Origin: Planctomycetota bacterium
GTDB lineage: Bacteria; Planctomycetota; UBA1135; GCA-002686595
NCBI GenBank assembly: GCA_016764635.1
Contig: JAESRM010000014.1
Span: 1-10,476, forward strand
Reading direction: 5' to 3'
DNA: 10,476 nt
The stretch's first letter is position 1. The number at the start of each line of letters is the position of its first letter. The translations under genes were made by a program, and so were the position numbers. Of this stretch, positions 1 to 10,476 are shown one piece after another. A model generated the notes under the pieces. The model was not told where the DNA came from. It searched no databases and saw only the letters and a program-made list of their open reading frames with translations.

Positions 1-50
1 GGCCGGGTCCAGGCCCTCGATAATACCACCCTAACCTGCCGACCTTCCAC

Positions 51-1439
51 ATGACTGACCTCCGCCAAACCTTCCAAGATGCCGACCAGGGTCATGTCTT
101 TCGATTCTGGAATGACCTGAGCCCTGCCTCCCAAAGCAAGCTCATGGATCAGGCCGGCCAGGTAGATCTGGAACTTGTGGGCTTGCATCGCAGCCTCTTA
201 GCCCCTGGCGAAACGAACGTGGAAGCTCCCCAATTCCACCCGCCTGAACTATTCCCGGCCCAACCCGAAGGGGAACAAATTCCGCATGCGGCCAAGGCAC
301 ATGCCCGCGGCGTGCAGCTATTGGACGATGGCAAGGTTGGGTTCGTACTAGTGGCCGGAGGGCAAGGCTCCCGGCTCGGTTTTGACGGCCCCAAGGGCAT
401 GTATCCTGTCGGCCCCGTTACGGACGCCAGCCTGTTTGCTTGGCACGCTGCGCGACTCAAAGCGGCTGCTATCCGGCACGGCTCCAAGGTGCACTGGTAC
501 GTGATGACCTCGGCCAGTAACGACGGAGCGACGCGCGAATACTTCGCAGAGCAAGGCCATTTTGGTTTGCCCGAGGACCAAGTTCACTTCTTCTGCCAAG
601 CCATGGTGCCGGCCCTGGACCTGCAAGGTCGTATCCTCTTGGCGGCCAAGGATGAGATTTTCCTGGCGCCCAACGGACATGGAGGCACCCTGCACGCACT
701 GGCCCAATCGGGCTTGCTGCGCCACGCGCAAGACCAGGGCATCGAGACCTTAAGCTACTTCCAGGTCGACAACCCCTTGGCGCGCCCCGCCTGCCCCTTA
801 TTCCTCGGTCTGCACTCCCTCGCGGGAGCCGGCATGTCGAGCAAGGTGGTCGCCAAAACCGATCCGAACGAGAAGGTCGGGGTGCTCGGCACGGCCAACG
901 GACAGTTGGGTTGTATCGAATACTCCGACCTGCCCGCCGAATCCCGTGACGCCAGGGATGCGGATGGCGACCTGGTTTTCCGAGCTGGCAACATCGCCGT
1001 GCATGCCTTGCAAACGGAATTCGTCGACCAGCTGACCCGGGATGGACTCGACCTACCCTGGCACTTGGCGCGCAAGGACATGCAAGTGATTGGGGACTCG
1101 GGCACGCTTGAATCCACCGCCGGAGTGAAGTTTGAAACCTTCATATTCGATGCCCTGGCCAAGAGTCCGGCTAGCGTCACTTTGGAAGTGGAACGTCGGT
1201 TGGAATTCAGCCCGGTCAAGAACGCGCAAGGCTCGGATTCCCCGGCCAGTTGCCGCCTGCACATGACGGAGCTTTTTGCGGGCTGGCTGCAGGCCACCGG
1301 GCTTCCGGAAGCCCAGCGGGACACTCAAGGCCTCGTACTCTTGGAGGTCGACCCTTGTTTTGCAGAGGATGAAGTCGAGTTCCAAAAGCGCCTGCCGGCA
1401 CAAGCCGCCAAGCAACCCAAGGGAACACTCTACAAGTGA
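51..1439 (+). CDS. UDP-sugar pyrophosphorylase, UAP/UDPGP family (probable UDP-N-acetylglucosamine or UDP-glucose pyrophosphorylase)
   Basis: This 462-residue cytoplasmic enzyme is expected to join UTP and a sugar 1-phosphate to give a UDP-sugar and pyrophosphate. The nucleotide-binding loop AGGQGSRLGFDGPKG is at residues 102-116, and it resembles the UAP1/UDPGP signature rather than the GlmU or GalU one. Further family landmarks follow in order: NGHGG (208-212), QVDN (238-241, a likely metal/UTP-site Asp), SSKVVAKTDPNEKVG (263-277), RAGNIAVH (311-318) and EFSPVKNA (385-392) with its conserved Lys390. The length fits the family. The ATG at 51 is chosen because the following FRFWNDLSP segment matches the usual N-terminal helix; no Shine-Dalgarno is visible before it. 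Only 50 bases precede the gene, with a possible -10 box GATAAT at 19-24. The stop overlaps ddl, which favours a role in peptidoglycan (UDP-GlcNAc), but motifs alone do not separate GlcNAc-1-P from Glc-1-P as substrate. Confidence 0.9.
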   Translation: MTDLRQTFQDADQGHVFRFWNDLSPASQSKLMDQAGQVDLELVGLHRSLLAPGETNVEAPQFHPPELFPAQPEGEQIPHAAKAHARGVQLLDDGKVGFVLVAGGQGSRLGFDGPKGMYPVGPVTDASLFAWHAARLKAAAIRHGSKVHWYVMTSASNDGATREYFAEQGHFGLPEDQVHFFCQAMVPALDLQGRILLAAKDEIFLAPNGHGGTLHALAQSGLLRHAQDQGIETLSYFQVDNPLARPACPLFLGLHSLAGAGMSSKVVAKTDPNEKVGVLGTANGQLGCIEYSDLPAESRDARDADGDLVFRAGNIAVHALQTEFVDQLTRDGLDLPWHLARKDMQVIGDSGTLESTAGVKFETFIFDALAKSPASVTLEVERRLEFSPVKNAQGSDSPASCRLHMTELFAGWLQATGLPEAQRDTQGLVLLEVDPCFAEDEVEFQKRLPAQAAKQPKGTLYK

Positions 1440-2566
1440 GCGGTCCCGCGGCAGCCCAGGACTCAGGCAACGCAAGCAAACCACTGCCCAACTGGGCCTT
1501 GCTCGCCGAGCCGTGCATGCGTGACCACGCACGCGACCTGCGCGTGGCCGTGCTGCTTGGGGGGACCTCGAGCGAGCGCGAGGTTTGCTTGGTTTCGGGT
1601 CGCGCCATGCTAGACGCCCTGTGCGCTGCAGGTGATCTAGCACCGCAATCCGTGATAGGCATCGAGATCGCCCAGGATGGTCGTTGGATTCTGGAGGGAG
1701 AAACCATCGACGCCACGCGCGCCATCGATCGCCTGCACCCGGAAACCGTCTTCATGCTCGGCTTGCACGGTGGCGACGGTGAAGGCGGGCCCATGCAGGG
1801 TTTCTTGAAATTGGCCGGGCGGGCGCACACGGGCACGGGCTTGGCGGCCTCCGTCTTCTGCATGGACAAGATTCGCTCGCGTCAGGTATTCGTGCAGGCG
1901 GGTCTGCGGGTGGCGCCCGGCGTGGGTCTCTGGCCCCACGAGATCCGTGGCGACCTCAATGCGCAGGTGCAACGAGTTTTGGCATTGGGGCCCGGGCCTT
2001 GGTTCCTCAAGCCCAGCTTGGGTGGTTCCTCGGTTTCCATGGGGCACGCGCGCAATGAACAAGAGATCGTGCAGTTCCTCAACGCATTGCCCGAACTGGA
2101 ACCGGGCGAGGGCATACTCGTCGAGCAGGCCATCAAAGGCGTTGAAGTCACGGTGGGCCTTTTGGCTGCGGGCGCCGAGGCTCCGACCTGCTTACCCGTG
2201 GTTGAAATTCAACCCAGCCCGGGGGCTTGGTTTGACTTCAAAGAGAAATACTCCGACTCGGGGGCTCTCGAATGGTGCCCGCCGAAGAACCTATCGCCCG
2301 CCCGTCAGGAGCAGGTGCAAGTCGCCGCTCGCAAGGCGTGGTATGCGGTCGGGCTCAGTGGCTACGCACGTTTGGACTTCATCGTGCCGGCCGAAGGCGA
2401 ACCGGTTTTCCTGGAGGCCAACACCTTGCCCGGTTTCACGCCGCGCTCCCTTTTCCCCATGGCTGCAGGGGTGGCGGGCTTGCCCTTCAATGAACTGTGC
2501 GTGGAACTCTGCTTGAGAGGCTGGGTCGATCATCAGCAACGCAACCGTAGTGGGGAAGAGGCGTGA
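1436..2566 (+). CDS. ddl: D-alanine--D-alanine ligase
   Basis: This ATP-grasp ligase joins two D-alanines for the peptidoglycan stem peptide in the cytoplasm. The N-terminal motif VAVLLGGTSSEREV (residues 37-50) carries Glu47, equivalent to E. coli DdlB Glu15. LHGGDGEGG (110-118) and the ATP-grasp loop FLKPSLGGSSVSMG (190-203) follow. KY at 271-272 matches the Lys-Tyr pair of D-Ala-D-Ala ligases, where D-lactate-type enzymes usually change the Tyr. ARLDF (311-315) and EANTLPGFTPRS (327-338) give the metal- and substrate-binding Arg312, Asp314, Glu327 and Asn329. The GTG start at 1436 overlaps the previous stop as GTGA, which suggests translational coupling. It adds about 27 residues that the family normally lacks, so the ATG at 1517 (MRDHARDLRVAVLL) is a serious alternative start. 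The end overlaps dapB in the same way. The function is clear and the start is not. Confidence 0.95.
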   Translation: MSGPAAAQDSGNASKPLPNWALLAEPCMRDHARDLRVAVLLGGTSSEREVCLVSGRAMLDALCAAGDLAPQSVIGIEIAQDGRWILEGETIDATRAIDRLHPETVFMLGLHGGDGEGGPMQGFLKLAGRAHTGTGLAASVFCMDKIRSRQVFVQAGLRVAPGVGLWPHEIRGDLNAQVQRVLALGPGPWFLKPSLGGSSVSMGHARNEQEIVQFLNALPELEPGEGILVEQAIKGVEVTVGLLAAGAEAPTCLPVVEIQPSPGAWFDFKEKYSDSGALEWCPPKNLSPARQEQVQVAARKAWYAVGLSGYARLDFIVPAEGEPVFLEANTLPGFTPRSLFPMAAGVAGLPFNELCVELCLRGWVDHQQRNRSGEEA

Positions 2567-3258
2567 GTTCACACCAGGAAATTTTGCGCGTGGCTATCAT
2601 CGGAGCCGCCGGACGCATGGGGCTTTTCGCCGACCGCTGGCTGTCGGCCCAGGCGAATTTTGAGGTGGTGGACCGCATCTATTCCAAGGACGACCTGCCC
2701 AAGGTCCTCGCCGCAAGTCAAGCCCATGTGGCCCTTGACCTCACCCGGGCGAGCCTGGGAGCACGGCATGCAAAACTGATCCTTGAAGCGGGCCTGCGCC
2801 CAGTGATCGGCACCAGCGGTGTGGACTCCATGGAGGACGAAGCCTTGGACCAGCTGGCCCGCGAACGGGGCCTGGGCGGGCTCATCGTTCCGAACTTTTC
2901 ACTAGGGGTGTGCCTGCAGCAGAAACTGAGTTTGCTTGCCGCCCAAGCCATGGGCGTGGTTGAAATCGTCGAAGAGCACCATCTGCGCAAGGTAGACAAG
3001 CCTTCCGCCACGGCCCTCGACACGGCCCAGCGCATCCACGAGGTCCTGCCAGCGGGCTCGGCTCCCGTGCCCATCCACAGCATCCGAACCCTGGGAGTGC
3101 ACAGCAACCAGACCGTGATCTGCACGGGCCCTGGCGAAGTTCTACGCATCGTGCACGAGACCTATGACCTGGAGGCCTTCGGGCCCGGAATGTGCCTAGC
3201 GATTCAGCACGTGATGGGGCAGATCGGCATGAGCCGCGGCCTCCAGCATTGCCTGTAA
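2563..3258 (+). CDS. dapB: 4-hydroxy-tetrahydrodipicolinate reductase
   Basis: DapB reduces 4-hydroxy-tetrahydrodipicolinate with NAD(P)H in the lysine/diaminopimelate pathway, which supplies the cross-linking residue of peptidoglycan. The Rossmann motif GAAGRMG (14-20) is standard. LDLTRA (58-63) stands where DFTxP is usual, IGTSG (82-86) matches the IGTTG loop, and PNFSLGV (110-116) matches PNFSxG. The catalytic block EEHHLRKVDKPSATAL (137-152) keeps His139, His140 and Lys143. The usual D-A-P-S-G-T segment here reads D-K-P-S-A-T, with Ala in place of the Gly that helps bind the substrate carboxylate. At 231 residues it is slightly shorter than common family members. The GTG start at 2563 overlaps the ddl stop by 4 bases (GTGA), so it is probably the last gene of the three-gene unit. 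No strong terminator follows. Confidence 0.93.
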   Translation: MSSHQEILRVAIIGAAGRMGLFADRWLSAQANFEVVDRIYSKDDLPKVLAASQAHVALDLTRASLGARHAKLILEAGLRPVIGTSGVDSMEDEALDQLARERGLGGLIVPNFSLGVCLQQKLSLLAAQAMGVVEIVEEHHLRKVDKPSATALDTAQRIHEVLPAGSAPVPIHSIRTLGVHSNQTVICTGPGEVLRIVHETYDLEAFGPGMCLAIQHVMGQIGMSRGLQHCL

Positions 3259-3521
3259 AATGGGTGCCCTAGGGTTCCCCAGCAGGCCGCCGCAAAAACA
3301 GCGATTCCCCGCCGCGCCCTCACAATCCAGCTGGCGGCGTTGTCACCGCTACCCAGGAATGGATGGCCTCGAATAGAGCCACCATGCAGGGAACCTGAGC
3401 GCCTTGCCAGCCGAATTTTGACGACCCGTCGGGAAAGCGCTGTTGTTGGGGCGGCCTGCTAGCAATTGTGTGGAACTGGGGCTTGTGCCCACGGCTTCGA
3501 ACGCTAGTATTGTGCGCCTAG
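3259..3521. other. Intergenic region between dapB and tRNA-Leu
   Basis: No protein gene is supported in these 263 bases. Just after the dapB stop there is a palindrome CCCTAGGG (3267-3274), but no hairpin followed by a T-run, so a classical intrinsic terminator is not seen. The last 40 bases probably carry the tRNA promoter. The short frames that cross the region overlap the tRNA and show no family motifs. Confidence 0.6.
3483..3510 (+). promoter_or_regulatory. Possible promoter of tRNA-Leu
   Basis: TTGTGC (3483-3488) and TAGTAT (3505-3510) are separated by 16 bases and lie just upstream of the tRNA 5' end at 3522. Each is a partial match to the sigma-70 boxes. A second reading uses TATTGT at 3508-3513 with a 19-base spacer. 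The position fits a short tRNA leader, but the match is weak. Confidence 0.3.
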
Positions 3522-3607
3522 GCCGGAGTGGCGGAATGGTAGACGCGACGGATTCAAAATCCGTTGGGAGCAATCCCATGAGGGTTCAAGTCCCTTCTCC
3601 GGTACCA
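3522..3607 (+). tRNA. tRNA-Leu, anticodon CAA
   Basis: A full class II tRNA can be folded by eye. The acceptor stem pairs GCCGGAG (3522-3528) with CTCCGGT (3597-3603), with one G-U closing pair. The anticodon stem ACGGA (3548-3552) pairs with TCCGT (3560-3564) around the loop TTCAAAA, so the anticodon is CAA (3555-3557) and reads UUG. A long variable arm TGGGA/TCCCA (3565-3569 with 3574-3578) is the class II mark expected for leucine. The T arm has the loop TTCAAGT between GAGGG and CCCTT. The discriminator is A3604, and CCA is encoded at 3605-3607. Confidence 0.96.
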
Positions 3608-3827
3608 CCCCTTTCCTCCCCGCACGAGCGGGTCGAGTCGAGCAGAAGGGGTGGGGGCTACAAGCCCGATAGGGGGGGCTAAGAATCGCCCCAATTGGCC
3701 TTTCGGAAAGACCTCCGGGACGTTTTTTGGACAACCCCAGGTCCAGTCACGAGACCGCGGGATCATTGGGCTGAATTTGACACCCGTCCGGCTTGGCACT
3801 TGCCTGCGACAGGGGTCCAATAGGCCC
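3608..3827. other. Intergenic region after tRNA-Leu
   Basis: Apart from the G-rich hairpins at 3653-3692 and a 5-bp hairpin CCCGC/GCGGG (3619-3632), nothing recognisable is seen. The upstream open frame continues into this stretch, but translated from ATG 3651 it has no family motif and non-coding-like composition, so the gene is started at 3828. TTGACA at 3777-3782 could be a -35 box for that gene, but no acceptable -10 box follows. Confidence 0.5.
3653..3692 (+). repeat. G-rich direct repeat with alternative hairpins
   Basis: The octamer GGGGGCTA occurs at 3653-3660 and again at 3674-3681. Three competing stems are possible in the RNA: GGGCT/AGCCC (3655-3659 with 3663-3667), AGCCC/GGGCT (3663-3667 with 3676-3680), and GGGGC/GCCCC (3675-3679 with 3688-3692). 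A T6 run lies further on at 3723-3728 but is not directly attached to a stem. This could be tRNA transcript 3' processing or termination structure; no function is shown. Confidence 0.4.
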
Positions 3828-4439
3828 ATGGATCCCTCCCTGCTAAAAAGCGGCCTGCTGTCGTTGGCCCTGCCCGTGCTGCTGCATAAGCTCGCCAACC
3901 AAACCCAGCTGATCACGGGTTTCCACGCGATTCTCCGCATGGAGGGGTCGGAAGCCCTGGTGGAGGCGCGTTCTCCGGATTTGATCTCGGCAGGGAATCG
4001 GGTGGAGCAGGTGGGCTGGCTGTTGGCCGCGCTCTCGAGCGGCGCCGGTCACAATCTCATGCTCTCCCGACGGGAACCGCGTGGTTTGACCTGGATGGTC
4101 GAATTGGTCCACGAGATACTGCGCAAGGAGGGTGTGGAGGCTCCGGGCTTCGCACAGGCGGTCCCAAGCATTGCCCCGGCAGCCCCCGAAGGTTGGCGTT
4201 TGCCTTGGGTAGTGGGATGCATGCTTTTTGAGGCGCATCAGGATGGCGAGCCAGGCCTAACGCCCTGGAGTATGAATCGCGGGGAGTCTGGCGAACACGT
4301 GCTGTGCCTGAACGTTCCAACCAGCAAATTCGAACGCATGCTGGAGCTTGCCGAATTCCTTCCTGGATCGAGCTGGAGTCAGGGTGCGGATGGCGCTGGG
4401 CGACTGCATCTTCCCGAAGAGTGGTTCGAAACCCCCTAG
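3828..4439 (+). CDS. Histidine-kinase-like H-box protein without clear ATPase domain (possible phosphotransferase)
   Basis: The protein is 203 residues, soluble, with no signal peptide or membrane segment. Residues 16-36 contain PVLLHKLANQTQLITGF, which resembles the H-box of histidine-kinase dimerisation domains (H-x-L-x-N pattern, His20 as the candidate phospho-acceptor). A second helix at about 53-70 (ISAGNRVEQVGWLLAAL) could complete a two-helix hairpin. The part after residue 85 has a stretch PWVVGCMLFEAHQDG (126-140) that sits where an N-box helix would be, but it lacks the Asn residues, and no G-box is visible. It may therefore be a phosphotransfer protein of the Spo0B/ChpT type or a decayed kinase. 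ATG 3828 is chosen because the H-box helix begins soon after; an AGGGG 12 bases upstream is a weak ribosome site. The gene lies upstream of the membrane sigma genes, and a link to them is only a guess from position. Confidence 0.5.
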   Translation: MDPSLLKSGLLSLALPVLLHKLANQTQLITGFHAILRMEGSEALVEARSPDLISAGNRVEQVGWLLAALSSGAGHNLMLSRREPRGLTWMVELVHEILRKEGVEAPGFAQAVPSIAPAAPEGWRLPWVVGCMLFEAHQDGEPGLTPWSMNRGESGEHVLCLNVPTSKFERMLELAEFLPGSSWSQGADGAGRLHLPEEWFETP

Positions 4440-4455
4440 GGACTCTGAGAGTCCC
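4439..4455 (+). repeat. Perfect 7-bp hairpin at the stop codon
   Basis: GGGACTC (4439-4445) and GAGTCCC (4449-4455) form a perfect stem with a 3-base loop TGA. The stem starts at the last base of the TAG stop of the H-box protein gene. No T-run follows, so it is not a standard intrinsic terminator, though it may still mark or protect the mRNA end. Confidence 0.55.
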
Positions 4456-4555
4456 GGTCTCGGTGGCTGCGCCAAATACGGCATGCATTGCGGCATGGGC
4501 TACTTCAAATACGATCCGACCAGATTCTTTTCGTGGTTAGGAAACATCATTCCTG

Positions 4556-4561
4556 TAGAAT
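4556..4561 (+). promoter_or_regulatory. Possible -10 box for the first membrane sigma gene
   Basis: TAGAAT (5 of 6 bases match TATAAT) lies in a locally AT-rich stretch (about 4501-4565) within GC-rich surroundings, 35 bases before the preferred start at 4597. No good -35 box is found at 15-19 bases upstream. GGAAAC at 4540-4545 resembles an ECF -35 element, but its distance to CGTA (4567-4570) is 21 bases, longer than the usual 16-17. Confidence 0.25.
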
Positions 4562-4596
4562 TGGAACGTACTCGCATGGTCAATAGAGCACGCGCC

Positions 4597-7494
4597 ATGT
4601 CTCCACTAGAAACCAAGTCCTCCAAGCTCTTCCGGCAGTTTCAGACCTCTGGTGATTCCGAGGTTCTTGGACGTACTTACGACTTGATCGCACCTGATTT
4701 CCTGACCCTCGCAGTGCACATTACTGGGTGTGCCGATGCAGCGGAGGACCTTGTTCAAGAGGTATTCCTGGACGCCATCGAGCAGGGGGGCGAATGGGCG
4801 CCAGGTGTCGCCCTGGAAACGTGGTTGGCCGAGTTGCTAGCCCACCGTCTGGAAACGTTTGAGCGCACTAGGGGCCAGGCTCCTGTCACAGCAGACCTGG
4901 ATGAGGCCATGGCGTTGACCATGCGCTGGACGCCGCTTTCGGAGGTGCAACAGTGCGAGGTTCTAGACCAACTGAACGCCGCTATCGCCCACTTGCCCGC
5001 AAAATATCTAGCGGTGGTGCAGTTGGGCATTCTCGATGGGCTGAACTCTAAGGAGATCGGTCTCAAGCTCGGTCGGTCACCCGCAACGGTGAGGTCCCAA
5101 TTGGCTCGGGGATTAGACAAACTTCGGAGTTCGCTCCCTGTGGCATTGGGCTCTTTCCTTCTGATCACTCACACCGGACAAGCCCGCGGGGCTACCTTGG
5201 GGGCAGACGCTGCGTTGCAACCCATGCGTGCCCGGTTTCTCGAACACGCCACCCGAGTCAAAGCCACATCTTCCGCCCCCGCATCGATTGCCACCCGAAC
5301 GATTTTGCAGTGGGCTGCCGTCGCCATGCTCGCCATCGGCGGCGCGTTTTGGGCAATGGACTCCTCCGAACACACCCTGGATGCGGTGCATGCCTCCGCG
5401 GCCACCGAATTGTCGCGCAAAGTGGAGCCTTCCGCGCAAGCACTGGTAGGTCCAGCTGTTGCGGATTCCAGCCGGCGCGAGCCCGCGGTGTTGGGGGACC
5501 TGAATCAAACCCCGAAAAGAGCCCACGTGTTTGGCCGCGTTTTAGACGCTGGCGGGAAACCGATCGAAGGTGCGGCCGCCACCCTCTTTACCTGGAGGAA
5601 ATGGGACTCACCCGAGGGGGCACCCGAAATAGATGGAGAGAGCATCTATGGCTGGAGAGTGCATACAGGCCCGTCCGGAGAGTTTTCTTTCGACGTGCAA
5701 TTGCCTGAAACAGGCAACCCGACGCTCAACGTGCAGTCCGGGCCGAATTACACGGTCTCCGACATTTGGTTCAACACAACTTTTTGCAATCAGGCTCCTC
5801 TTTGGTCAGGTGAAAATGCCATTGGGCCGGTGTACCTGCAGCACGCGGGTCAAATTTCGGGCACCCTGCTGACCGATGCGGGCTTACCAGCCTACCCAGC
5901 GTACATCATTATCTCGCCAGGTGCCAATCCGACAACGGGCTCCATGATCGCCACCCAACCCGACGGCTCCTTCCAAATGGGTCATTTGCTTGCGGGGCAA
6001 CAGGAGCTCATTGTTCAATACAAGAGCCAAGTACGTGCCACTGAATCGGTGCTGATCAAGAAAGGTGGGCCGGCGTTGCGGTTGCACATGCGCATGCCCC
6101 CGACCCGATCCCTGCGTGTGGATGTGAGCCATTCGGACGGCAGCCCGTTGGCCGGAGCCATGATTCGGTTCGAGCCTATGGGAACAAACTCCAAGGGCGA
6201 CATGAGGGACATTGGCCTGCGCACAGACCGCAATGGATCCGCCCAAGTCCAGGTTCTCAACCAGCAGAAAGGAGCTTTATTCGTCAGTCTTAAAGGCTTT
6301 GCTTCGGAGGAACGTTTCTACAGACCCAAAGCAGACCAAGGGTTTCTAAAGGTGCGCATGACGCGTACCTACACCCAAATGTTCCGGGCGGTGGACTTCC
6401 ATACGGGGGAGCCCCTGAAAGAGTATTGGCTGGTTCCCCAGATTCTGGAGGACGGGCAATGGGCAAACTCACGGGCCTCCCAAAGAGAAGAGTTCGAGAA
6501 CTCCGGTGCCATAGCAATCTCCACGAGGGACGGTGAGTGGGTCAATATTTGGTCCCCTGGTTATCATTCCAAGAGATTAGACCCCAGGTCCTGCCGCGAA
6601 GAGATCGCGGTTGTGAGCCTCAAGCCCCTCATGAAGATCGCCGGCAGGGTCATGCTTAATGGGCAACCCGTGAGTCATGCAAAATTAGAACTTGCCGGCT
6701 CCACGCTCCGTGCGGAACGGGGTGCCAAGCCAGAGGAACTGCGTGCACTCTTCACCAGCCTGGGAAATGCCATGGCGTGGCTCGAGACCGATTCAAACGG
6801 ATACTTCGAATTCACCGCGTTCACGACGTCTAACCTCACATATAGACTCAGGGTACAGGCGGGCGATGGGCATGCCGTCGAGCGGTGGTTTCGACTGAAC
6901 GAATTCCAGGGCGACACCGCCGAGCTGGGGGCTTTGCAACTCGAGGAAGCGGGATCCGTTGCGGTTTCCGTCCTCGCCCCAACCGGAATGGATCCCACGG
7001 GGTTGGCATTTTTATTGGACCTACCCCATGGCGCCACCATCGGCCGCGTGAACTCGCACGGCAAATTCAAACTCAATGGAATCGTGCCCGGCAAGCACAA
7101 GCTACACCTGAGGAAGAACCCAGGTTTGGCTCAGGACTCTCCAGGATTTGCCTTCGAGATAGTCGCTGGCAAGGCCACTCAACTCGCAATAGACCTGCGC
7201 CCACTCGCCCTGTCCTACCAGGACTTGCAACTGCTCGACAATGGCAAACCCATGGTCGACTGCAAAGTGTTTTTCGCACCCAAGCCCCCGCTTTCAGCGG
7301 GCAATGCCACCCAATGGAAAGGGGGCTACTTCGGAACCACCGACGACCAGGGCCGACTCTATGGAAGGGCACCTGCGGCCGGTTGGGCTCAAGTGTGGGT
7401 CTATGAAGTGGGCAAGAAATCAGCCAAGCGCCTCGCCAAGCCCCATGTTGACCTCCGCCATAAACCACAAGGGCTGATCACCGTCACCTTCTAG
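4597..7494 (+). CDS. Membrane-anchored ECF sigma factor fused to a beta-sandwich repeat ectodomain (copy A)
   Basis: With the ATG at 4597 the protein has 965 residues. Sigma region 2 spans about 10-92, with the core-binding motif AEDLVQEVFLDAI (49-61) and TWLAELLAHRLETFERTRG (75-93) in the place of regions 2.3-2.4. Sigma region 4 spans about 122-180, with the helix-turn-helix SKEIGLKLGRSPATVRSQLA (151-170). A linker (181-235) leads to one hydrophobic helix, ILQWAAVAMLAIGGAFWAM (236-254). The rest looks like carboxypeptidase-regulatory-like/Ig-like modules, with strand-turn patterns such as FGRVLDAGGKPIEGA (312-326), ISGTLLTDAGLPAYPA (420-435), LRVDVSHSDGSPLAGA (506-521), IAGRVMLNGQPVSHA (681-695) and VAVSVLAPTGMDPTG (788-802), and turn motifs like DSNGYFEF (732-739). 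The expected topology is N-inside, C-outside. Earlier starts exist at 4576 and 4348. ATG 4597 best matches the N-terminus of the neighbouring paralogue, and the 4348 start overlaps the previous gene. The sigma/TM assignment is strong; the signal sensed and the promoters used are unknown. Confidence 0.88.
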   Translation: MSPLETKSSKLFRQFQTSGDSEVLGRTYDLIAPDFLTLAVHITGCADAAEDLVQEVFLDAIEQGGEWAPGVALETWLAELLAHRLETFERTRGQAPVTADLDEAMALTMRWTPLSEVQQCEVLDQLNAAIAHLPAKYLAVVQLGILDGLNSKEIGLKLGRSPATVRSQLARGLDKLRSSLPVALGSFLLITHTGQARGATLGADAALQPMRARFLEHATRVKATSSAPASIATRTILQWAAVAMLAIGGAFWAMDSSEHTLDAVHASAATELSRKVEPSAQALVGPAVADSSRREPAVLGDLNQTPKRAHVFGRVLDAGGKPIEGAAATLFTWRKWDSPEGAPEIDGESIYGWRVHTGPSGEFSFDVQLPETGNPTLNVQSGPNYTVSDIWFNTTFCNQAPLWSGENAIGPVYLQHAGQISGTLLTDAGLPAYPAYIIISPGANPTTGSMIATQPDGSFQMGHLLAGQQELIVQYKSQVRATESVLIKKGGPALRLHMRMPPTRSLRVDVSHSDGSPLAGAMIRFEPMGTNSKGDMRDIGLRTDRNGSAQVQVLNQQKGALFVSLKGFASEERFYRPKADQGFLKVRMTRTYTQMFRAVDFHTGEPLKEYWLVPQILEDGQWANSRASQREEFENSGAIAISTRDGEWVNIWSPGYHSKRLDPRSCREEIAVVSLKPLMKIAGRVMLNGQPVSHAKLELAGSTLRAERGAKPEELRALFTSLGNAMAWLETDSNGYFEFTAFTTSNLTYRLRVQAGDGHAVERWFRLNEFQGDTAELGALQLEEAGSVAVSVLAPTGMDPTGLAFLLDLPHGATIGRVNSHGKFKLNGIVPGKHKLHLRKNPGLAQDSPGFAFEIVAGKATQLAIDLRPLALSYQDLQLLDNGKPMVDCKVFFAPKPPLSAGNATQWKGGYFGTTDDQGRLYGRAPAAGWAQVWVYEVGKKSAKRLAKPHVDLRHKPQGLITVTF

Positions 7495-7508
7495 CGCGTC
7501 CTTCTCAA

Positions 7509-7537
7509 GCGGCTTCCATATCCTCATTTCAAGCCGC
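7509..7537 (+). repeat. Perfect 7-bp inverted repeat between the two sigma genes
   Basis: GCGGCTT (7509-7515) and AAGCCGC (7531-7537) are separated by 15 bases. The element fills much of the 63-base gap between copy A (stop ends at 7494) and copy B (start 7558). It could be an RNA hairpin or a dyad operator in front of copy B. There is no T-run, so it does not look like an intrinsic terminator. Confidence 0.5.
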
Positions 7538-7557
7538 ACTACACTCTCCGCACCGCA

Positions 7558-10446
7558 ATGATTCGTTCCGATGACGAGCTGTTTCTTCTGTACCAGCAAA
7601 AAGGGCAAGCCGACATTCTCGGCAAAATCTACGACAGTGTCGCCCCGGGATTACTGACGCTCGCGCTCCACCTCCGGAGCGATCCAGCCCAGGCCGAGGA
7701 TCTAGTACATGACGTTTTCGTGCGGGCCATGGAAGACGCAAGCGAATGGGATCCGGCCACGCCCCTGAGTGAATGGCTCAGTTCCTTTTTGGCCACAGGG
7801 ATGGAAGGTCCATCCTTCGCAATTAGCGGCTTGCTGGAATTGCACGACCTGGATCCCGCACCGGATAGCATGGATCCCTTAAGTCAAGCCAAGGTTTCGG
7901 AGCTGCAACATCAACTCAACGAAGCCATTGTGCGGCTGCCGGAAAAGTACCAATGCGTGATCCGCATGGGGCTCCAGGAAGGTCTCGATTCACATGCCAT
8001 TGGTATGGCGCTGGACCGTTCCCCGGGAACGGTACGTTCACAACTGTCCAGGGGTTTGGACCGGTTGCGCCAAATGCTTCCCAGCGCCCTGGGGTTAGGA
8101 ATCGTTTGCCGCGCCTCTCAGGGCATGGAGCTTGCGCACCCGTTTGGATCCAATGTGCTGCGCACGCGGGTGTTAGAGACGCTCGCGCTCCCCAAGGTTG
8201 CCCCCCTGCCAAGCGAAGCGCTGGCAGGGTCCAAGGGCATACAGACCTTCACCCTCGCCGCACTGGTCACGGGGGTCGTAGGTGTGCTGGCCCTGCTCTA
8301 CAGCCAAGCCCCCCAGACGGCTGGGGCGGGCAACCTTCCAACATATCCAACCACTCAAATCCGGGTTGTTCCGCAAGGCGGAGCGGGGATCGAAACGCCC
8401 GAACTCGCACAGCGGCAAGTCGCCACTGGAGAACGCGCGGCAACCGAGACCCGGGAGAGTCATCTCTTTGGCAGGGTTGTCAATCATCTGGGAGTGCCCA
8501 TCGCTGGCGCGACAATCACGCTCCACTCGGATGATCCTTGGTTCGGAGAAGGCCTCCTCGGCGAGTCAGGGGAAGAACCCGAGTGGATTGTTAGCTCAGA
8601 TGACCAGGGCTACTACAGCCTTGTGGTCCCCACGCCCAAGGCCCGCTATGTGGAGTTGCTCGTTAATGCGACGGATGATTACTCCAGCCATCATATTACA
8701 TTTGCGGGCCTCGGCAGCTGCGCGCCGCCACTTTGGTCCGGCGAACGCGACCTGGGTACCGCGACCTTGTTTCCGGCAGGCAGCATCACCGGCCGCATTC
8801 TAAACCATGATGGCACTCCGGCCTACCCCGCCACGGTGGTGATTTCGCCCGGTTGCGACCCCGCCACGGGCTGCCAACAAGACACGGATCCCGATGGTCG
8901 ATTCATCGCTCCTAACCTGCTGCTCGGGGAACACACCATTCGCGTGTACCAGGACAGCCGCGTCTCATCCCTAAAAGGTGTGGGGTTAGAACAGGGGCAG
9001 CATGTTCAACTGCCCGTTCACTTCCTGCCCCTGACCGATCTCATCACGGTTCAGGTTCAAGGCCCGGAAGGTTTACCGGTCAAAGGCGCCATGCTGGCCT
9101 TTGCCTCCGGGGATGGGGCTCAAGCAGCAAAGCGGGACCTGCCAAGGACCCATGCCAGCGGAATCAGTGAAACCCAATTGGCCCCCGGAGAAGGGCGAAC
9201 TTTAACCGTCCTGGCGTCCGGCTTCTCGCCGGAAGGTCCCTTGCCCTTGGAGCCTGGCGACGCGCATCTCACAATCCGCCTCAAATCCGTTCCCAGCGTG
9301 GGTTTCCGCGCCTTTAACCCAGCCACCCAACAACCCATCCCTGTGTTCTACGTGCACGTAGAACGCCAGAATTTGCTTGGACAATGGCAGGAAGTCGACA
9401 GCCCAAGACCTCTTGATGTCGAAGCCGGAGAAGCACGCCACGTGTCGATCCAAGAGGGTGATAGGTATGGGGTGTTTGCCAATGGATACCAGGAGGTCCT
9501 CGGCGTTTTCGAGCAGGGCGCCGAAGATGTGATCCATATCCCTCTGACCCAGATCCCGTCCATCGTAGGGCGCGTCGTGATGAACGGCATTCCGCAAGCC
9601 CATGTATTGATCGAGCTCTCTGCGGGAGGCTTGCGCAATGGGGACGCTGATCAGTTCGCAGCCGCTCCTGAATTGGAGTTCGAGATCAAAGACTTCTGCG
9701 TGAAATGGACCCAGACCGATAGCGACGGGAATTTCGAAATCGACAGTTTTGAACTTCAGCAGTCTCACTACAGTTTGCGTGCGAACCTACCGGGTGTGGG
9801 GTCTACGATCGAGTGGTTCCAAGTCAAACAGGGTCAGCCGAACACCATTCGAATGGGGGACTTAGAACTAGAGCAAACAGGATCCATTCAAGGTCGTGTC
9901 CTTGGCCCTCCAGGGCTACCCATCGGTGGATTGGCCGTGTTTTTGGATTGCCCAGGTGGCTCTCGCTTTGCCTATACGGATTCCTCTGGAGTCTTTGAAA
10001 TCACGGACGTGCTTCCAGGCCCGCACCGGGTTGTGGTCGAGGAACTGCGGGAGTTGATTCCTATCCGTTCCCCCGAAACCCTATTCGTGAAGGCGGGAGA
10101 AACCAGTGAATTCCATTTGGACCTACGCTCTTGCGGCAGAAGCCTCAGGGACCTGGAAATCTTCTTGGGCGGAAATCCGTTGGTCCACTACAAGGTGTAC
10201 CTACTCGCCCCACGAACCGGGCAACGACCTGGGGATCCCGACGCAGAAGAACTGCAAGCTGGGTTCATTGGGAGCACGGACGCGCAAGGCTTTGTACACG
10301 GTGAGCTGCCCTGCGGGCCGCCGGTTGAAGTCTGGGTGGCCTCTCCCGGAACCGACCGGCTCACTCGTCACGGAAGCGCCATGCTGTACCTGCGTTGCGA
10401 CCCCAGCCCTCGCATCCACGTCGAATTCGAAAGCGTTTCAAACTAA
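7558..10446 (+). CDS. Membrane-anchored sigma-factor-like protein fused to a beta-sandwich repeat ectodomain (copy B)
   Basis: This 962-residue paralogue of the preceding protein has the same domain order. Sigma region 2 begins at about residue 7, with AEDLVHDVFVRAM (46-58). The following segment SEWLSSFLATGMEGPSFAIS (71-90) lacks the basic and Asn residues normally found in regions 2.3-2.4. Region 4 is well kept at 120-174, with the helix-turn-helix SHAIGMALDRSPGTVRSQLS (145-164) followed by RGLDRLR (165-171). A hydrophobic helix, FTLAALVTGVVGVLALLYS, covers 231-249. The exported part repeats motifs such as FGRVVNHLGVPIAGA (304-318), ITGRILNHDGTPAYPA (410-425), VQVQGPEGLPVKGA (498-511), IVGRVVMNGIPQAHV (669-683) and IQGRVLGPPGLPIGG (777-791), with turn motifs DPDGRF (444-449) and DSDGNFEI (721-728). 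Several Cys residues (388, 433, 439, 714, 798, 859, 919, 947) could form disulfides outside the membrane. The ATG at 7558 has no visible Shine-Dalgarno. It may be a DNA-binding membrane regulator rather than a full sigma factor. Confidence 0.87.
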   Translation: MIRSDDELFLLYQQKGQADILGKIYDSVAPGLLTLALHLRSDPAQAEDLVHDVFVRAMEDASEWDPATPLSEWLSSFLATGMEGPSFAISGLLELHDLDPAPDSMDPLSQAKVSELQHQLNEAIVRLPEKYQCVIRMGLQEGLDSHAIGMALDRSPGTVRSQLSRGLDRLRQMLPSALGLGIVCRASQGMELAHPFGSNVLRTRVLETLALPKVAPLPSEALAGSKGIQTFTLAALVTGVVGVLALLYSQAPQTAGAGNLPTYPTTQIRVVPQGGAGIETPELAQRQVATGERAATETRESHLFGRVVNHLGVPIAGATITLHSDDPWFGEGLLGESGEEPEWIVSSDDQGYYSLVVPTPKARYVELLVNATDDYSSHHITFAGLGSCAPPLWSGERDLGTATLFPAGSITGRILNHDGTPAYPATVVISPGCDPATGCQQDTDPDGRFIAPNLLLGEHTIRVYQDSRVSSLKGVGLEQGQHVQLPVHFLPLTDLITVQVQGPEGLPVKGAMLAFASGDGAQAAKRDLPRTHASGISETQLAPGEGRTLTVLASGFSPEGPLPLEPGDAHLTIRLKSVPSVGFRAFNPATQQPIPVFYVHVERQNLLGQWQEVDSPRPLDVEAGEARHVSIQEGDRYGVFANGYQEVLGVFEQGAEDVIHIPLTQIPSIVGRVVMNGIPQAHVLIELSAGGLRNGDADQFAAAPELEFEIKDFCVKWTQTDSDGNFEIDSFELQQSHYSLRANLPGVGSTIEWFQVKQGQPNTIRMGDLELEQTGSIQGRVLGPPGLPIGGLAVFLDCPGGSRFAYTDSSGVFEITDVLPGPHRVVVEELRELIPIRSPETLFVKAGETSEFHLDLRSCGRSLRDLEIFLGGNPLVHYKVYLLAPRTGQRPGDPDAEELQAGFIGSTDAQGFVHGELPCGPPVEVWVASPGTDRLTRHGSAMLYLRCDPSPRIHVEFESVSN

Positions 10447-10476
10447 ATAGATCTGGCCCACCTGTGAAACCCCAGG

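Follow-up and report, generated by a model that had tools for sequence, protein, structure and literature searches.

How can a sigma factor that is fastened to the cytoplasmic membrane by its own polypeptide chain reach RNA polymerase? This question is raised by two adjacent genes, ORF A and ORF B, from a Planctomycetota bacterium (GenBank assembly GCA_016764635.1, contig JAESRM010000014.1). They lie in the window analysed here, which is the whole 10,476-nucleotide stretch of DNA (bases 1-10476 of the 14,028-base contig, C352) from a genome of 3.06 Mb that is 64% complete. A first-pass annotation of this DNA took each product to be a sigma factor joined by one membrane helix to a chain of beta-sandwich modules and asked whether such a protein acts after proteolytic release or at the membrane. 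Our best reading, which we regard as having about an even chance of being correct, is that both proteins are membrane-latent sigma factors that would be released by proteolysis and that, in the clade to which the pair belongs, would use the -10 region of promoters in an altered way. Two things were missed in the first-pass annotation: the family around the pair is large and expanded, with members in tandem arrays, and the pair's clade has a non-standard sigma part in which region 2.3-2.4 is eroded. The features on which the argument turns are as follows.

4597-7494, + strand: ORF A, 965 amino acids (aa)
ORF A, residues ~7-92, 113-180, 181-232 and 233-254: sigma2, sigma4, linker and membrane helix (predicted), respectively
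ORF A, residues 255-305 and 306-965: stalk and transthyretin (TTR)/CnaB-like beta modules, respectively
4822..4911, + strand: ORF A region 2.3-2.4 helix and following residues (residues 76-105), eroded relative to the family consensus
5029..5130, + strand: ORF A region 4.2 helix-turn-helix (residues 145-178), strongly conserved
5293..5358, + strand: ORF A predicted membrane helix (residues 233-254; Kyte-Doolittle)
7495..7557, + strand: A-B gap, 63 bp
7558-10446, + strand: ORF B, 962 aa, domain order as in ORF A

The N-terminal sigma region 2 plus region 4 unit proposed for each protein is borne out by curated profiles. Sigma70_r2 (A 27, B 30.3 bits against a Pfam cut-off of 24), Sigma70_r4_2 (37.5 and 27.1 against 25.7) and the sigma70-ECF model TIGR02937 (54.8 and 49.8 against 42.9) all pass in both, so that regions 2 and 4 of extracytoplasmic function (ECF; group 4) sigma factors are both present in A and B over curated cut-offs. 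CarboxypepD_reg also exceeds its Pfam cut-off in both (three stretches in A, four in B) and is accompanied by a TTR-like fold, which agrees with the repeated beta-sandwich modules expected after the helix. These modules form a presumed ectodomain of ~660 residues and resemble pilin, CnaB and TTR domains; the structural aligner covered mainly model residues 6-183 and 416-503, and lack of a match elsewhere carries no meaning. Along its whole length (100%), A can be aligned with four relatives of 961-983 aa, with identities of 46-48%, which rules out the frameshift join of two genes that the annotation had raised as a concern, and likewise a misassembly join.

Hydropathy gives one segment per protein, at residues 236-254 in A (Kyte-Doolittle 1.69) and 230-248 in B (2.09), in line with the single membrane helix anticipated near residue 240. 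Hydropathy alone is weak evidence for a helix, most of all in A. Real linkers (n=109) reach 1.6 in 92.7% of cases and 2.0 in 56.9%, compared to 54.4% and 15.0% of composition-shuffled linkers (n=2,180), 4.2% and none of the ectodomain windows (n=166) and 3.7% and none of the sigma parts (n=109). The helix is instead proposed because its position is nearly constant and because relatives of A (P0002-P0005) have stronger values, 2.23-2.63, at the same position. Among 125 family proteins and pieces, 110 have a recognisable sigma4 anchor (15 anchorless ones were left out); a segment of at least 1.6 is present within the stretch searched in 102 of the anchored set and missing in eight, and the segment lies a median of 60 residues past the anchor (interquartile range 53-64, n=109 proteins). 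The N-in/C-out orientation is proposed because the sigma part should be cytoplasmic. No anchored member has HxxxCxxC in the linker (0/110), and a candidate conserved linker motif, GRGLAxVR..., was dropped as too rare to use (13/110 non-clade linkers by a strict pattern, 36/110 by a loose one).

In ECF sigma factors, region 2.3-2.4 recognises and melts the -10 element, and it is here that the clade of A and B departs from its family. The clade comprises 11 sequences that group together on a tree built without region 2.4 (support 0.976), and it was compared with 109 other members after two of 122 aligned sequences were dropped as repeats of other entries. In A, B and the paralogue C345, the Sigma70_r2 match ends at profile position 54-55 of 71, compared to 67-70 in six other paralogues of the same genome; it ends at position 32 in P0004 and is absent in P0002. 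Consensus residues are lost clade-wide: Trp76 is kept in 7/11 clade members versus 109/109 others, Gly79 in 1/11 versus 94/109, Ala85 in 0/11 versus 97/109, Arg90 in 1/11 versus 89/109, and Arg94 in 0/11 (two gaps, one Lys) versus 102/109. Net charge over 26 residues from position 76 ranges from -3 to +3 in the clade, where five of the 11 members retain +2 or +3, and is at least +2 (median +4) in the others; loss of consensus is thus uniform in the clade and loss of charge is not. A measure that is independent of alignment columns inside the stretch, the highest combined count of Lys and Arg in any eight of the 30 residues counted from position 76, comes to 0-3 for clade sequences (at most 2 in 10/11) and 3-7 for all 109 others, and in ORF B the 26 residues counted from its Trp contain neither Lys nor Arg. 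When pairs with 45-65% identity in the core are compared, region 2.4 is 20.4% identical within the clade (41 pairs) versus 43.0% outside it (3,843 pairs, which are not independent).

This erosion is confined to part of the sigma unit. Compared with the four relatives nearest to it, A is 58% identical over regions 2.1-2.2 and 32% over 2.3-2.4; the 12-residue stretch 106-117 reaches 69%, the sigma4 helix-turn-helix 68%, the membrane helix 29% and the beta modules 43-57%. None of seven ectodomain stretches compared is better conserved than regions 2.1-2.2 and 4.2. The combination of an eroded 2.3-2.4 helix with 2.1-2.2 and 4.2 among the best-conserved parts appears, from these alignments, to be new. 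Because 2.3-2.4 is eroded and 2.1-2.2 and 4.2 are kept, we infer that sigma parts of the clade may still dock on RNA polymerase and read the -35 element, using the -10 region differently.

The pair is one example of an expanded family. Of 39 Sigma70_r4_2 matches in its own genome (E up to 0.001), 14 fall in frames longer than 450 aa, and all 14 frames have a hydrophobic segment of at least 1.5 past sigma4 (three are cut by a contig end). Ten of them were scanned with Pfam, and CarboxypepD_reg was over cut-off in seven and under it in three (C41, C130 and C353); Sigma70_r2 is under cut-off in C178, and C318 begins past region 2. With up to 14 candidates scored per genome, 30 of 61 genomes (own genome plus 60 relatives, own included in the 30) match A at 1e-20. 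Across the phylum, with 16 candidates scored per genome, 41 of 149 sampled genomes (own included) match a sigma-transmembrane alignment, A2, at 1e-33, and most among the matches listed sit in frames longer than 700 aa. A database search with residues 1-260 of P0007 found 87 proteins, 80 of which also have CarboxypepD_reg, and those named by organism are planctomycetes; since this search was limited to proteins of comparable length and to the 8,000 top-ranked candidates, the proportion is biased, and the 87 cannot be treated as independent. ORF A alone as query found no relative among named genomes. When a second alignment, A1, was used against these genomes, frames of at least 350 aa were found for only nine of the best 80 of 229 stretches encoding a relative (longest 593 aa), and most of these 80 thus appear to be ordinary sigma factors; the scan gives no estimate of fusions in other phyla. 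A phage origin was dropped after 50,697 phage records gave one weak sigma-only match. In a separate observation from the C41 locus of the own genome (L047, G000:C41, 999-5587), a 923-aa sigma fusion lies between two short sigma genes (Sigma70_ECF type; Sigma70_r2/r4).

The tandem layout, which the first-pass annotation had suggested seeking in other genomes, recurs in relatives as arrays of two, four and five. G032 has five sigma-fusion frames in a row on one contig, and G018 has four in a row plus one pair among 29 frames of at least 700 aa (150 of 231 candidates scored). Same-strand adjacent pairs within 4 kb number four in G032 versus 0.02 expected (eight frames of at least 700 aa) and four in G018 versus 0.24 expected (29 frames), with four or more arising in 5e-5 of simulations for the latter. 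The membrane segment was checked for the nine members of the rows of five and four. On the tree, the row of four in G018 is monophyletic (0.963); the row of five in G032 is not an exclusive group (its most recent common ancestor has 10 leaves). Elsewhere in the phylum, 8 kb of G142:C105 contain three sigma-transmembrane matches, whose frames measure 1570, 1812 and 272 aa, which is possibly another array with even larger ectodomains.

The principle of a single-chain membrane sigma factor is already known. IutY of Pseudomonas putida (ECF243) has an N-terminal ECF sigma, one membrane helix and a C-terminal part on one chain, and cleavage by Prc and then RseP frees the active sigma (PMC9249621, PMC8999054); the same order is seen in A and B by sequence and hydropathy, with the helix predicted. 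Its periplasmic part is FecR-like and works with the outer-membrane receptor IutA (PMC9249621), whereas in A and B this place is taken by TTR/CnaB-like modules, and no receptor gene occurs among the neighbouring genes scanned. ECF52 (SCO4117 of Streptomyces coelicolor) likewise joins sigma, membrane region and C-terminal extension, and release by an unknown protease has been proposed; it is described only from Actinobacteria and carries a zinc-finger domain, a proline-rich stretch and a carbohydrate-binding module (PMC5826349). Planctomycete ECF sigma factors with C-terminal extensions were already known, as the annotation had noted; in ECF57 the added domain comes without an anti-sigma factor and consists of WD40 repeats (PMC8999054, PMC8567305) rather than CarboxypepD_reg-type modules. 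At E<=1, Pfam matches no zinc-finger, FecR, carbohydrate-binding or WD40 domain in A or B. The beta-module ectodomain, lack of any anti-sigma module found, copy number and arrays set the present family apart. Literature text searches found no paper on this domain combination, although a prior listing is possible in the 2021 ECF classification or the 2012 planctomycete ECF paper, which the searches did not cover.

Release by proteolysis is favoured because the anatomy of A and B matches that of IutY and ECF52/SCO4117, and IutY supplies a close precedent for one side of the question posed by the annotation (PMC9249621). In the proposed sequence of events, A and B would sit at the cytoplasmic membrane as ECF-type sigma factors with one N-in/C-out helix and a TTR/CnaB-like chain outside, and the tether would keep their sigma part from being used productively. 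Trimming on the outer side would follow once the ectodomain receives a signal or is damaged, a site-2 protease of RseP type would then cut within the membrane, and the freed sigma part would bind RNA polymerase. The single-chain layout described in the annotation stands; its words 'sensor' and 'exported' should be taken as presumptions.

Several observations weigh against this scheme. M50 protease genes occur in all three genomes searched, including two relatives of ~90% completeness, but they also occur in 14/14 control genomes, so that their presence says little, and the own incomplete genome has only small or weak M50 matches; for these reasons the protease evidence is permissive. No anti-sigma element that would keep the sigma inactive was found in A, B or the neighbours scanned, and tethering alone may be insufficient for this. 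The membrane helix of A is marginal by hydropathy alone (1.69), and mean counts of Lys and Arg on the two flanks of the segment across the family hardly differ (1.24 versus 1.14), so that the inside-positive rule lends no support to the orientation. Finally, the eroded region 2.3-2.4 speaks against a fully ordinary sigma factor in the clade.

The last point leads to the main novel alternative to proteolytic release, which is that A and B are membrane-tethered sigma mimics that keep contacts with polymerase or an anti-sigma factor and the reading of -35 elements, without opening promoters. Titration, repression or partner switching would be their mode of action, comparable in principle to that of the sigma-like domain in PhyR. 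We rate this as a minority possibility, well behind release. Clade-wide loss of Arg94, Ala85 and part of Trp76, the Lys/Arg-poor stretch from position 76 and the halved core-matched identity in region 2.4 argue for it, but the strongly kept sigma4 recognition helix would be superfluous in a pure mimic, five clade members still have net charges of +2 or +3, no partner gene was recognised among neighbours scanned, and no chain named PhyR occurs within 34 PDB sequence matches. A fuller version, to which we give similarly limited credence, is that a family of true membrane-latent sigma factors spread by tandem duplication and that the clade arose within it as tethered sigma-like proteins that dock and read -35 but cannot open promoters via the usual -10 helix, and so would serve as repressors, titrators or half-sigmas in need of a partner.

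Less probable again is action at the membrane, in which the sigma factors would transcribe DNA brought to them without proteolysis. Membrane-bound one-component regulators of other kinds exist, and the linker of ~50 residues between sigma4 and the membrane, which is modelled with low confidence, might allow such reach. Against this, IutY, the closest tested single-chain relative in layout, needs cleavage (PMC9249621). Least probable of all is that the pair consists of duplicated fusions drifting out of transcription, with only the ectodomain selected as a surface stalk or adhesin: the eroded 2.3-2.4 region and the likeness of the modules to pilin, CnaB and TTR domains would suit this, but conservation of 2.1-2.2 and 4.2 as good as or better than that of the ectodomain stretches, and fragments of a similar pair with the same neighbouring genes in a congeneric species (G003), make it improbable.

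The gap between A and B is consistent with co-transcription of the pair. Genes for a UDPGP-type uridylyltransferase, D-Ala-D-Ala ligase (Ddl), DapB, a tRNA-Leu and a protein here called X precede A on the same strand; past B, the contig has a CvpA-type gene on the opposite strand, a gene for a 564-aa protein and one for a GNAT protein.

3522-3607, + strand: tRNA-Leu
3828..4439, + strand: gene X, 203 aa, modelled with a histidine-kinase/ChpT-like fold, between dapB and A

A Pfam scan of the four upstream and three downstream genes, smaller ORFs not included, found no anti-sigma gene, as the annotation had stated. The 564-aa protein (L045 1237-2931, on C352 beyond the window) has no significant Pfam match and has a 67% identical counterpart adjoining CvpA in G003. 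Among named relatives, the locus is best matched by L090 (Planctomycetota), where UDPGP, Ddl, DapB and X are followed, with the order unchanged, by the beginning of a B-type sigma fusion that is cut off by the contig end. In G003, which belongs to the same genus, one contig (C318) has Ddl, DapB, X and then a B-type start, another (C1) a B-type end followed by an A-type start, and a third (C338) an A-type end, CvpA and the 564-aa protein; this arrangement fits the same pair in reverse order with the same flanks, on contigs that are not joined. G001 has one fusion after X that reaches the contig end, and no pair was seen in G002. Upstream stretches of A, B, C345, L090, L228, L229 and L235 had no clear common motif by eye, without statistics, and a shared autoregulatory promoter was dropped as a candidate on this basis.

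Gene X was considered as a specific partner of A and B and ruled out, since it keeps company with Ddl or DapB and rarely with a sigma fusion. It is present in 28/41 family genomes (own included); in 20 X loci taken with flanks of 1,500 bases (shorter where a contig ended), Ddl or DapB lies beside X in 14 and a sigma fusion in two (own and G001), although L090 and G003 also pair the two. These counts place X in the Ddl-DapB cluster, and it is probably not part of the sigma-fusion system. The window copy has no Pfam match, and eight of 10 aligned members of the X group match SPOB_a weakly (best E 0.028). The model (pLDDT 86) has a compact histidine-kinase DHp-CA-like fold, with best Foldseek rows at probability of at least 0.9, E ~5e-3 and TM-scores below 0.45, and ChpT among lower matches; X is possibly a phosphotransfer protein tied to a cluster for cell-wall precursors.

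Part of the phylum thus seems to wire outside signals to transcription through single-chain proteins, in many copies and in arrays. Should release prove proteolytic, the family would offer many natural examples in which to study minimal transmembrane transcription switches. Should the eroded clade be unable to initiate transcription, it would represent a membrane-bound sigma factor that has been turned into another kind of regulator.
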